From Methanogenium marinum (GTDB lineage: Archaea; Halobacteriota; Methanomicrobia; Methanomicrobiales; Methanomicrobiaceae), in contig NZ_JAKELO010000002.1 of NCBI RefSeq assembly GCF_028912405.1, forward strand, positions 248,001-312,000: 64,000 bases of DNA, read 5' to 3'. A program made the translations under genes and the position numbers. This document shows, piece by piece, positions 2,542 to 10,773 of this stretch; within the stretch, counting starts at the first letter, position 1, and the number at the start of each line of letters is the position of its first letter. The notes under the pieces were generated by a model. That model saw only the letters and a program-made list of their open reading frames with translations, searched no databases and was not told the DNA's origin.

Positions 2542-3516
<975 letters not shown>

Positions 3517-7119: not shown

Positions 7120-7773
7120 TCATTTTTGAGCGCCCTCACAGAAAAGAAAATAACCATTCATTCTTTCAGTCGTTTCAGCCACTCTCTCTTCCAGATACGT
7201 ACTGTCCATCATATACCGGACCATGCACAGATTTTTTGCACCGGCACGGAGGACATCTCTCAGATTTTCTGCATTGATACCCCCGATTGCAACAACCGGA
7301 ATATCGCCTGCCATCTCTATTGCCTCTTGTAAGAGGACAGTTCCTGTTACAGGGTCGGGTTTTTTCTTTGTCGGCGTCTTAAATATCGGACCAAATCCGA
7401 TATAGTCCGGATTTAGCCTGACAGCATCTTCTACCTGGGCCAGATTATGGGTTGATAGTCCAAATTCGCCCACCTTTCCCCCGCAGATCTTTTTTGCATC
7501 CAAAAGGCCAATATCATCCTGACCAAGATGAAGGCAGTCTGCACCACAAAGAAAAGCAAGATCTGCCCGGTCATTCATGACAAACCGCGTATCTGTGCCA
7601 TCCGTTACCGCCATAATCTCATCTGCAGCGAGAAGAATCTCTCTGTCACTGAGCTCTTTTTCCCTCAGCTGAAGATACCTGATATTATTATCAACAGCAA
7701 CCCGGGCAATTTTAGCATATGAGACAGATGGATTTGTTATTATCAGATACAGCCCAAAATCCCGTTTACTCAC
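7120..7773 (-). CDS. thiE: Thiamine-phosphate synthase
   Basis: RYLQLREKEL, FVMNDRADLA, DCLHLGQDD, IGFGPIFKTPTK, VAIGGI motifs. Confidence 0.95.
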   Translation of the reverse strand: MSKRDFGLYLIITNPSVSYAKIARVAVDNNIRYLQLREKELSDREILLAADEIMAVTDGTDTRFVMNDRADLAFLCGADCLHLGQDDIGLLDAKKICGGKVGEFGLSTHNLAQVEDAVRLNPDYIGFGPIFKTPTKKKPDPVTGTVLLQEAIEMAGDIPVVAIGGINAENLRDVLRAGAKNLCMVRYMMDSTYLEERVAETTERMNGYFLFCEGAQK

Positions 7774-8537
7774 TTTAAATCCTCAATGATAAGCTTTGCG
7801 GCCTTTTCTCCGGAAAGCAGCATCCCTCCGAATATGGGCCCCATCCGTGGAGAACCAAATACTCCGTTTGCCGCCATACCGCATACATACAGTCCGGGAT
7901 AGATCTGTTTGGTATTCTCAACCGTCTCTGCCTCACCCTCAGTTACATTCATAGAACGCTCCCCTGAGACTGTTCCTGACGGCGTGTTGAGCGTGATATT
8001 ATTCTTTTTTGCAACCTTCTCTGAAACTTCGCACGGGTGACCAGTTGCATCAACCACCATTTTTGCCCGGAAAGACAGTGGGTCGACATGCAGGCCTTCT
8101 CTTACTACGGGCTCCCAGTTGACAACAACTCCCGATACTCTGTTGTCCTTAAACACAACATCCTCAACACGCATGCCGTTGTGAATCAGAACTCCCGCCC
8201 GGGATGCCCGGTATATCAGTGCAGATGTCGCAAGAACACTGTCACATATGACAAGGTTGTCATTGTATCTCTGATAAGGAATGCCAAGTTCATCAAGAAG
8301 GTAAACTGCTTCATTCTGAAGAGCAATCGAGGTAAACAACATGGCACCGCCCCACATGCCTCCGCCGGGGGCAAGTTTGCTCTCAAACATAGAAACCGTA
8401 TAGCCCGCTTCTGCAATTCTTAATGCGGCAATGAGTCCTGAAGGCCCAGTTCCCGTGATAGCCACATCCATGTCCAGATTTTCCTGAAGTCTTTGAAACC
8501 AGGTATCAGTAATTGCTTTCGTTACTTCCAAATCCAT
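7770..8537 (-). CDS. thi4: Thi4-family thiazole synthase (archaeal, His at donor position)
   Basis: TGTGPSGLIAALRIAEAG; FGSPRMGPIFGGMLLSG; GLHVDP at the site occupied by Cys in suicidal Thi4. Confidence 0.93.
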   Translation of the reverse strand: MDLEVTKAITDTWFQRLQENLDMDVAITGTGPSGLIAALRIAEAGYTVSMFESKLAPGGGMWGGAMLFTSIALQNEAVYLLDELGIPYQRYNDNLVICDSVLATSALIYRASRAGVLIHNGMRVEDVVFKDNRVSGVVVNWEPVVREGLHVDPLSFRAKMVVDATGHPCEVSEKVAKKNNITLNTPSGTVSGERSMNVTEGEAETVENTKQIYPGLYVCGMAANGVFGSPRMGPIFGGMLLSGEKAAKLIIEDLK

Positions 8538-8594
8538 TATCGTATCCTCCCTGAATCAAGGCGGATAATGCGAGAAGCTGCGACCACTAAAAGG

Positions 8595-8695
8595 AGCTCC
8601 CTACGCCGGCATTATCCGGATCAGGTAAAATGGGTATAATCTCAGCCGTAACAGTCAGATGAGAATTGTCTCTTCTGGCTGCCGCAGCACCCCAT
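8595..8695 (-). promoter_or_regulatory. TPP riboswitch (THI element)
   Basis: Minus strand GGGGTGC...GGCTGAGATTATACCCATTTTACCTGATCCGGATAATGCCGGCGTAGGGA; matches THI box consensus (CTGAGA, ACCTGATC, GGATAATGCC, GTAGGGA). Confidence 0.95.
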
Positions 8696-8760
8696 TATAC
8701 CAACCGATTTCAGGGAATAAATAATTTCTGAAAGAGAGAAGAATTCATATGTCTAGCATC

Positions 8761-8800
8761 CCCGCAAGGAGTCCCCGGTCTTTAGGCCGGGGTAGTTGAC
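8761..8800 (+). mobile_element. Orphan IS200/IS605-type right-end / omegaRNA 3' hairpin
   Basis: CGCAAGGAGTCCCCGGTCTTTAGGCCGGGGTAGTTGAC: 8-bp stem and TAGTTGAC tail typical of IS605 right ends; no tnpB nearby. Confidence 0.65.
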
Positions 8801-8955: not shown

Positions 8956-10773
8956 ATGGAATATATAAAATTTTGTAGCGAACACAAATATTTCATATGT
9001 GCCTTTTTCATCTTATCACTCTATTTAGCACCGTTCTATATCCTTGGCGATACCGCACCCACATTAATCCACGACAATCTTGATTCTAATATTGTCTGGT
9101 ATACAATCCTCGCTGATAGCGGTCAGTCCTTTGGGCTGATGGATGCAACCATTCCACAACTCATGAATGGAATACCCCGTAATTCCTTTGGGTCAGAGTA
9201 TAGTGTGATTCAGTGTCTCTTTCAGTTTTTTGAACCCTACACCGCATATATCATAAATCTTACACTAATGCATCTCTTTGCGTTTATCGGGATGTATCTC
9301 CTCCTCTCACGACATCTCCTGTCCCATAAAGACTCAATTTTTATCACCGTAGGCGTTTCACTTGCATTTGCTCTGCTCCCCTTCTGGCCATCCGGGGGGC
9401 TGAGTATTGCAGGTATGCCCCTCCTCCTCTATGCATTCCTGAATATCCGAAATAACCAATGGAAAATAACAGATTGGGCAATTATCGGACTCATGCCCTT
9501 CTATTCAAGCTTTGCACTCACCGGTTTTTTTGTTCTGGCTGCATTAGTGCTTTTCTGGTTGTATGATCTGTTCCATACACGAAAACCAAATTACGCATTT
9601 TTCCTTGCCATCTGTCTCGTTTGCCTTATGTACTGCCTCGTAGAATATCGGTTACTGTATAGCATGTTCTTCGACACCGGATATGTCTCGATGAGGACAG
9701 AGATGATCCGGGGGGCCGGTTCAACAGATTTTTGGAGCGCAATCGCACATAGCAAAGCCAACTTTATTTATGGTCAATACCATGCCGTAAGCCTGCACAA
9801 GTACGTTATTGGCCTCTCTGTTGCCTGTGCCTTTCTTGTACTCCTGTTCAAAAGAAAGAGATGCGATCTCCTGATACTATTGGTTGGTTTATGCGCTGTA
9901 ATCTCTCTTTTTTATGGATTTGCATATTCGGACCTATTATCAATTCTCCAGAATATCCCTCTCTATAATTCATTCTCGATAATAAGATTCCATTTCCTGC
10001 ATCCATTACTCTGGTTCATCATTTTTGCGCTCGCTCTGAAGATAATTTACTCAAATATTCAGTATGGCAGGCAAATTGCAGTAATCTTCCTTATTTTGCA
10101 GATTGGATTCCTCTTCTCGTTGGGAAGCGTGGGGAATATCAACACAGAATCATATCAATGTGGGGGCCTTGGTCTTTTACAAACAGAACAATTAAGTTTT
10201 GATGAATTTTATTCCCCGGAATTATTTGCAGAGATTAATGACTCAATTCAGCTTCCCAGGGAGTCGTATAGAATTGTTAGTATCGGAATGCACCCTGCCA
10301 TCTCACAATATAATGGGTTTTATACCCTTGACATGTATCACGTAAACTATCCACTGTCATATAAGCATTCATTCAGGTTAATTATAGAGAAAGAACTCGG
10401 GAAAAACGAAAACCATCAGGAATGCTTTGATACCTGGGGCGGTCGTTGCTATATATTTGTCAGTGAACTTGACGGTAATTCCATGTATACACGAGATATA
10501 AATGGTTCCGTTCAGAATTTAGAGATAAACTCTCAGGTTCTCTATGACATGGGAGGACGGTATATATTTTCCGCAGTGGATATTCAGAATTATCAGGAAA
10601 ATAATCTTGATTTCATCGGTACATTTGAAAGAGATGATTCGCCGTGGAAAATACGAGTATATTCTGTTAAAAAACCAGCAGATAATACTTCAAATAGTAT
10701 CATTTCTTCTGCTGATGATGAAAATCTTCAAAACAAACAGCAACCCTCACACCCTGTTGAACACCCATCATGA
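8956..10773 (+). CDS. Large multi-TM protein (DUF6044/YfhO-like, putative GT-C)
   Basis: 605 aa, many hydrophobic segments, DTAPTLIHDNLDSNIVWY near N-terminus. Confidence 0.6.
   Translation: MEYIKFCSEHKYFICAFFILSLYLAPFYILGDTAPTLIHDNLDSNIVWYTILADSGQSFGLMDATIPQLMNGIPRNSFGSEYSVIQCLFQFFEPYTAYIINLTLMHLFAFIGMYLLLSRHLLSHKDSIFITVGVSLAFALLPFWPSGGLSIAGMPLLLYAFLNIRNNQWKITDWAIIGLMPFYSSFALTGFFVLAALVLFWLYDLFHTRKPNYAFFLAICLVCLMYCLVEYRLLYSMFFDTGYVSMRTEMIRGAGSTDFWSAIAHSKANFIYGQYHAVSLHKYVIGLSVACAFLVLLFKRKRCDLLILLVGLCAVISLFYGFAYSDLLSILQNIPLYNSFSIIRFHFLHPLLWFIIFALALKIIYSNIQYGRQIAVIFLILQIGFLFSLGSVGNINTESYQCGGLGLLQTEQLSFDEFYSPELFAEINDSIQLPRESYRIVSIGMHPAISQYNGFYTLDMYHVNYPLSYKHSFRLIIEKELGKNENHQECFDTWGGRCYIFVSELDGNSMYTRDINGSVQNLEINSQVLYDMGGRYIFSAVDIQNYQENNLDFIGTFERDDSPWKIRVYSVKKPADNTSNSIISSADDENLQNKQQPSHPVEHPS

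Follow-up and report, generated by a model that had tools for sequence, protein, structure and literature searches.

The thi4–thiE locus

The window, i.e., the whole stretch of 64,000 nt of Methanogenium marinum DNA that was analysed, carries on its minus strand thi4 (7770–8537, ATG at 8537), encoding a sulfide-dependent ADP-thiazole synthase of bacterial type (TIGR00292, 292.9 bits; cut-off 148.3), in which His is found at the position of the active-site Cys (LHVDPL; alignment to 4y4n). It is overlapped by thiE (7120–7773, minus strand; thiamine phosphate synthase, TIGR00693, 158.8 bits; cut-off 145.1), the second thiE of the genome and of cassette type, where cassette stands for the unit riboswitch–thi4–thiE. 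Identity of the cassette ThiE: 67–75% among archaea, 55% to the bacterial locus L073, 43% to the bacterial locus L009, and only 31–37% to the other thiE of the cassette-bearing archaeal genomes. Stop codons and deletions disrupt the cassette thiE of L005/L006 (apparently Methanogenium sp. CSMAG_280), where both thi4 and its riboswitch have stayed intact. The divergent neighbour of the window cassette (8956–10773, plus strand) codes for a membrane protein of the DUF6044 family, complete in length (PF19510, 671.5 bits).

The TPP aptamer

A TPP riboswitch upstream of thi4 had been proposed in the preliminary description, and the proposal stands: RF00059 matched at 8581–8704 of the minus strand (flanks included; conserved core 8693–8599) with E 1.4e-9, the core letters are kept, and homologues precede thi4 in 10 other Methanomicrobiales genomes (52.9–68.1 bits; 9 of the 10 reach the gathering score). 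The match in the window was obtained in a permissive Rfam scan at 52.7 bits, 1.6 below the gathering score of 54.3; since the score lies below that limit, no match is reported with Rfam default settings. The aptamer upstream of thi4 is the single TPP match (n = 1) in the whole 2.24-Mb genome.

All core blocks of RF00059 (GGGGUGC, GCUGAGA, ACCUGAU, GGAUAAUGCC and CGUAGGGA) are present in the window aptamer; the ligand-binding core (CUGAGA, ACCUGAU, L5 and CGUAGGGA) is kept there and is nearly invariant across the archaeal alignment. Helices P2, P3, P4 and P5 showed pairing in 90.4% of cells, slid controls in at most 55.3%. The position 5' of the thiamine genes thi4–thiE is that expected for members of RF00059. 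Helix P1 is not recognisable in the window aptamer, 5/5 model pairs being non-standard in the RF00059 alignment; the corresponding numbers are 2–5/5 in the archaeal relatives shown versus 0–3/5 in bacterial thi4 loci. P1 is variable within the TPP riboswitch class and is no strict criterion of membership. Switching based on P1 was considered and rejected, P1 being too weak. Homology is hardly doubtful at E 1.4e-9, so that the element is here called a divergent relative expected to work like a TPP riboswitch; reading it as a TPP riboswitch is right, with TPP as the predicted ligand.

The expression platform

The coordinates and letters given in the preliminary description for the aptamer segment, the anti-strand and the Shine-Dalgarno (SD) region are all correct on the minus strand. 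The P5/L5 segment CGGAUAAUGC (= CGGATAATGC, 8618–8609), one partner of the anti-strand, is perfectly complementary over 10 bp to the anti-strand GCAUUAUCCG (= GCATTATCCG, 8571–8562), the putative antisequestor/sequestor strand. The SD region GGGAGGAUA (= GGGAGGATA, 8551–8543; spacing from GGAGG to ATG 8 nt) can pair with the same strand (UAUCCGCCU/GGGAGGAUA); the one G·A mismatch described earlier was confirmed, and one U–G wobble is found besides. The resulting SD-sequestering hairpin, UAUCC-G-CCU ... GGG-A-GGAUA, spans 8543–8567 of the minus strand.

When the whole aptamer was compared with the platform, 1 of 300 shuffled platforms yielded a complement as good as the 10-bp one; when only P5 was compared with it, 0 of 100 shuffles did. 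Helices of P5 with the anti-strand measure 9–11 bp in 11/11 archaeal sequences, a length seldom reached by shuffles, and in the alignment the first 9 nt of the anti-strand, GCAUUAUCC, are unchanged in all 11 within a fast-changing linker. In the same 11 sequences, pairing of the anti-strand with P5/L5 is possible in 98.2% of cells versus 27–48.2% with the partner slid by 1–3 columns; for the anti-strand:SD hairpin the values are 92.0% and, slid, 40–60.9%. Double (compensatory) changes were seen in neither platform helix among the 11 archaeal sequences, the columns of which hardly vary, since aptamer, anti-strand and SD are each constrained; the sole changes of pair type are A–U to G–U at one P5 pair and U–G to C–G at one hairpin pair. 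The support for both helices comes from invariance and from the controls.

The antisequestor and the SD sequestor are mutually exclusive and both are conserved; for this reason a translational OFF switch on thi4 is well supported by conservation, the effect of the ligand being predicted from the alternative pairings. At low TPP levels, the anti-strand GCAUUAUCCG would pair with P5/L5 CGGAUAAUGC, the binding pocket would be broken, the SD would stay open, and Thi4 and ThiE would be made. When TPP is plentiful, P4/P5 would fold around the ligand and the anti-strand would be freed to close the hairpin on GGGAGGAUA, whereupon translation of thi4 would drop. This agrees with the switch model put forward in the preliminary description, both pairings being conserved in two archaeal families (11 genomes) and the modelled folding of most relatives being in accord with it. 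Both TPP binding and the direction of the response in the window are read from the sequence and are to be understood as predictions.

Directly after the aptamer, the linker contains a UUUU run (8589–8592, minus strand; alignment columns 35–38), which may serve as an archaeal signal for pausing or termination. Archaea are known to terminate transcription at U-tracts, and the run is invariant in 11/11 archaeal leaders within an otherwise variable linker; it could thus be the site at which a transcriptional TPP riboswitch pauses or terminates, the downstream hairpin being secondary. Four U are, however, short for an archaeal terminator, and this reading would explain neither why the anti-strand is invariant nor why it can pair with the SD. 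The thiC riboswitch of E. coli is in favour of such a mechanism in so far as it illustrates that bacterial TPP switches are able to act at both levels (PMC5234074). On the whole, control by transcription is considered unlikely, and the translational OFF switch is retained.

Promoter and predicted transcript start

A TATA-box-like element, TTTATTCC, lies at 8714–8721 of the minus strand, exactly 20 nt 5' of the aptamer GGGGUGC, and a YTTATAYC-like 8-mer is found at exactly this distance in 11/11 archaeal cassettes. In the methanogen Methanolobus psychrophilus, promoter elements/TATA were predicted ~19–22 nt from the start site (PMC5378194). From these two distances the transcript probably starts at the aptamer/P2 edge, which would explain the missing P1 and would exclude a 5'-flank helix of the minimum-energy fold.

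The helix in question joins the 5' flank UCCCUGAAAUC (8716–8706) with GAUUCAGGGA (8557–8548); it is present in the minimum-energy structure of a 191-nt segment and could as such be the real, long-range mask of the SD. Nevertheless, the flank falls in the interval from the TATA-like element to the predicted start and is probably untranscribed promoter DNA, and L004 and L005 (flank UCCAUGAAAUC) lack one G–C pair of the helix. The helix, weakened in relatives in this way, was rejected as a highly improbable SD mask, and the hairpin closed by the anti-strand is preferred.

Just upstream of the promoter, a strong hairpin, CTACCCCGGCCTAAAGACCGGGG (8772–8798, minus strand), was observed; it resembles IS200/IS605-type ends and is single-copy in the genome at ≤3 mismatches.

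Modelled folding

In modelled folding, the probability of the ligand-free anti-strand:P5 pairing was 0.88–1.00 in 10/10 archaeal relatives. When P2, P4 and P5 were made to form, pairing of the anti-strand with the SD reached 0.71–0.86 in 8/10; for the bound state of L003 and L123, the anti-strand was not predicted to close the SD. In the 11 archaeal sequences together with L009 (12 in all), SD accessibility dropped on average by 0.20 versus 0.046 with shuffled platforms (100 shuffles; sd 0.039, largest 0.148).

The window is the weakest case for the ligand-free state among the sequences modelled: with a 6-nt leader and no ligand, the model gave just 0.04 for anti-strand:P5 and 0.23 for unpaired SD. 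The ON fold was favoured by 0.1–0.8 kcal/mol at 37 °C with leaders of 2–6 nt and by 4.4–6.5 kcal/mol with leaders of 10–26 nt; for a transcript beginning at the edge of the aptamer, the window RNA is predicted to be nearly isoenergetic in its ON and OFF folds. This near-zero balance at short leader length, as modelled, is a real weakness of the switch model at the window locus. Riboswitches can operate kinetically.

Almost isoenergetic folds would also fit a relic, i.e., a transferred bacterial aptamer no longer functional in the archaeon, and so would the loss of P1 in the Rfam alignment (5/5 pairs non-standard) and the decayed cassette thiE of L005/L006. The letters of the binding core, the anti-strand and the SD hairpin are nevertheless kept across two families despite change in the linker, and the cassette thi4 is intact in 10/10 genomes whose assembly covers the whole gene; a relic is quite unlikely, and a functional switch is preferred.

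Distribution in Methanomicrobiales

The RF00059 element was found in 11/232 genomes of the order, each time upstream of a cassette-type thi4: 3 in the genus of the window (one of them L005, identical with L006, apparently a Methanogenium sp. MAG), 2 in another genus of the family, and 6 in a single genus belonging to a second family (one of them L008, identical with L122, which appears to be Methanocorpusculaceae archaeon UBA425). In the second-family genus, cassette-type thi4 occurs in 6/25 genomes; the other 19, many of them incomplete, show no thi4 of any type. The distribution of the riboswitch–thi4–thiE cassette in the order is patchy. TPP matches in L086 (G226) and L087 (G371), distant archaeal MAGs of the phylum, were left out as likely contamination; their contigs look bacterial (LacI-type regulator, transposase).

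Origin of the cassette and loss of the native thi4

In the protein tree, the 10 cassette Thi4 form one clade (100/99) nested in bacterial Thi4 (95/97); native Thi4 of the family, including those of four species of the window's genus, are separated from them by a branch of 1.41 with 100/100 support. The nearest Thi4 outside the cassette clade are bacterial (54–61% identity); native thi4 of the same family show 45–48%. The designation archaeal thi4 used previously holds in that the gene resides in an archaeon; by tree and identity the gene is of bacterial type and was probably acquired with its switch.

A TPP riboswitch precedes thi4 in 10/18 bacterial loci scanned. In L009 (Spirochaetota) and L073 (Neomarinimicrobiota), a TPP aptamer and a GCATTATCC platform are followed by thi4–thiE and then by a putative thiC (an open frame named from its sequence). 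The 9-nt anti-strand of the archaeal cassettes is identical in both loci; the SD of L009 is GGGAGGATA, and in L073 AAGGAGG faces CCCCCTT beside the anti-strand. With L009 and L073 carrying it, the platform is not an archaeal peculiarity. Two other candidates were set aside: 7/8 matches of the platform pattern in other Spirochaetota lie outside a TPP context and were dismissed as chance, and the Parabacteroides complement GCGUUACC, which sits in a different hairpin, was not counted as the same platform.

The 9-nt anti-strand that L009 and L073 have in common with the archaeal cassettes would be expected as well if the bacterial loci had got the cassette from methanogens. This direction is already disfavoured and very improbable: the archaeal cassettes are a single clade within a wide bacterial Thi4 diversity, the bacterial operons additionally contain thiC, and many bacterial thi4 genes of this group are preceded by TPP riboswitches.

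In a congener (G012), an intact native thi4 adjoins htpX (L133). At the syntenic site beside htpX in the genome of the window (L132, ~2641–3035; G000:C2, ~1732140–1732530), a decayed remnant of native thi4 was found: part of the N-terminus (83 aa, 45%) and a piece of the C-terminus, RMGPIFGAMFLSGRHAAKLAIEHL, in different frames and with the middle gone. The remnant indicates that the native thi4 was lost in this genome and that the bacterial-type copy alone remains; the loss presumably came after the arrival of the cassette.

From the gene tree, the shared platform and the remnant, it is most likely that the complete cassette crossed from bacteria, aptamer, platform, thi4 and thiE entering Methanomicrobiales together, and displaced the native archaeal gene in the window genome. 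Taken as a whole, control of thi4–thiE by a translational OFF TPP riboswitch, bacterial origin of the entire cassette and displacement of the native thi4 here form a reading in which we have considerable confidence. That a riboswitch-controlled operon (aptamer, anti-P5 platform, thi4, thiE) reached archaea from bacteria, functions there with archaeal ribosomes, its archaeal promoter being fitted to the edge of the aptamer, and took the place of the native thi4 is judged rather probable.

Comparison with known systems

Euryarchaeal TPP riboswitches have been on record since 2007 (PMC2258182), so that the class is not new in archaea; the open-access literature searched yielded no report of the riboswitch–thi4–thiE cassette or of native thi4 being displaced by it. 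The more interesting addition to the earlier reading is the cross-domain transfer of a switch with its gene. As a candidate the cassette is compact and its switch readable, and sister species occur both with and without it; it offers a way of asking whether an RNA control element from bacteria still works after transfer between domains.

The window element shares all conserved core letters with the RF00059 TPP riboswitch (THI element) and differs from typical members by a score below gathering, an unrecognisable P1 and a long P3 insert. The bacterial operons L009 and L073 resemble the window in the aptamer, the GCATTATCC anti-strand before the SD and the order thi4–thiE; unlike it, they contain thiC and a short P3, and L009 is without the archaeal TATA element at that place. 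The window Thi4, as a TIGR00292 member with His for the active-site Cys, is similar to the sulfide-dependent non-Cys THI4 (PMC8454699; PDB 7rk0, 4y4n) and, unlike native Methanomicrobiaceae Thi4, falls in the bacterial branch.

With the thiC riboswitch of E. coli (PMC5234074), the window has in common the proposed OFF logic and a mutually exclusive antisequestor and RBS sequestor; the antisequestor of thiC is an anti-P1 stem (PMC5234074), whereas that of the window pairs with P5/L5, P1 being degenerate. In fungal and plant TPP riboswitches (PMC2258182), as proposed here, a P4–P5 segment pairs with a control site and comes free on TPP binding; the control site is the 5' splice site in the eukaryotic riboswitches (PMC2258182) and the SD-masking anti-strand in the window. 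Anti-P5 platforms like the one seen here have otherwise been described from the TPP riboswitches of eukaryotes.
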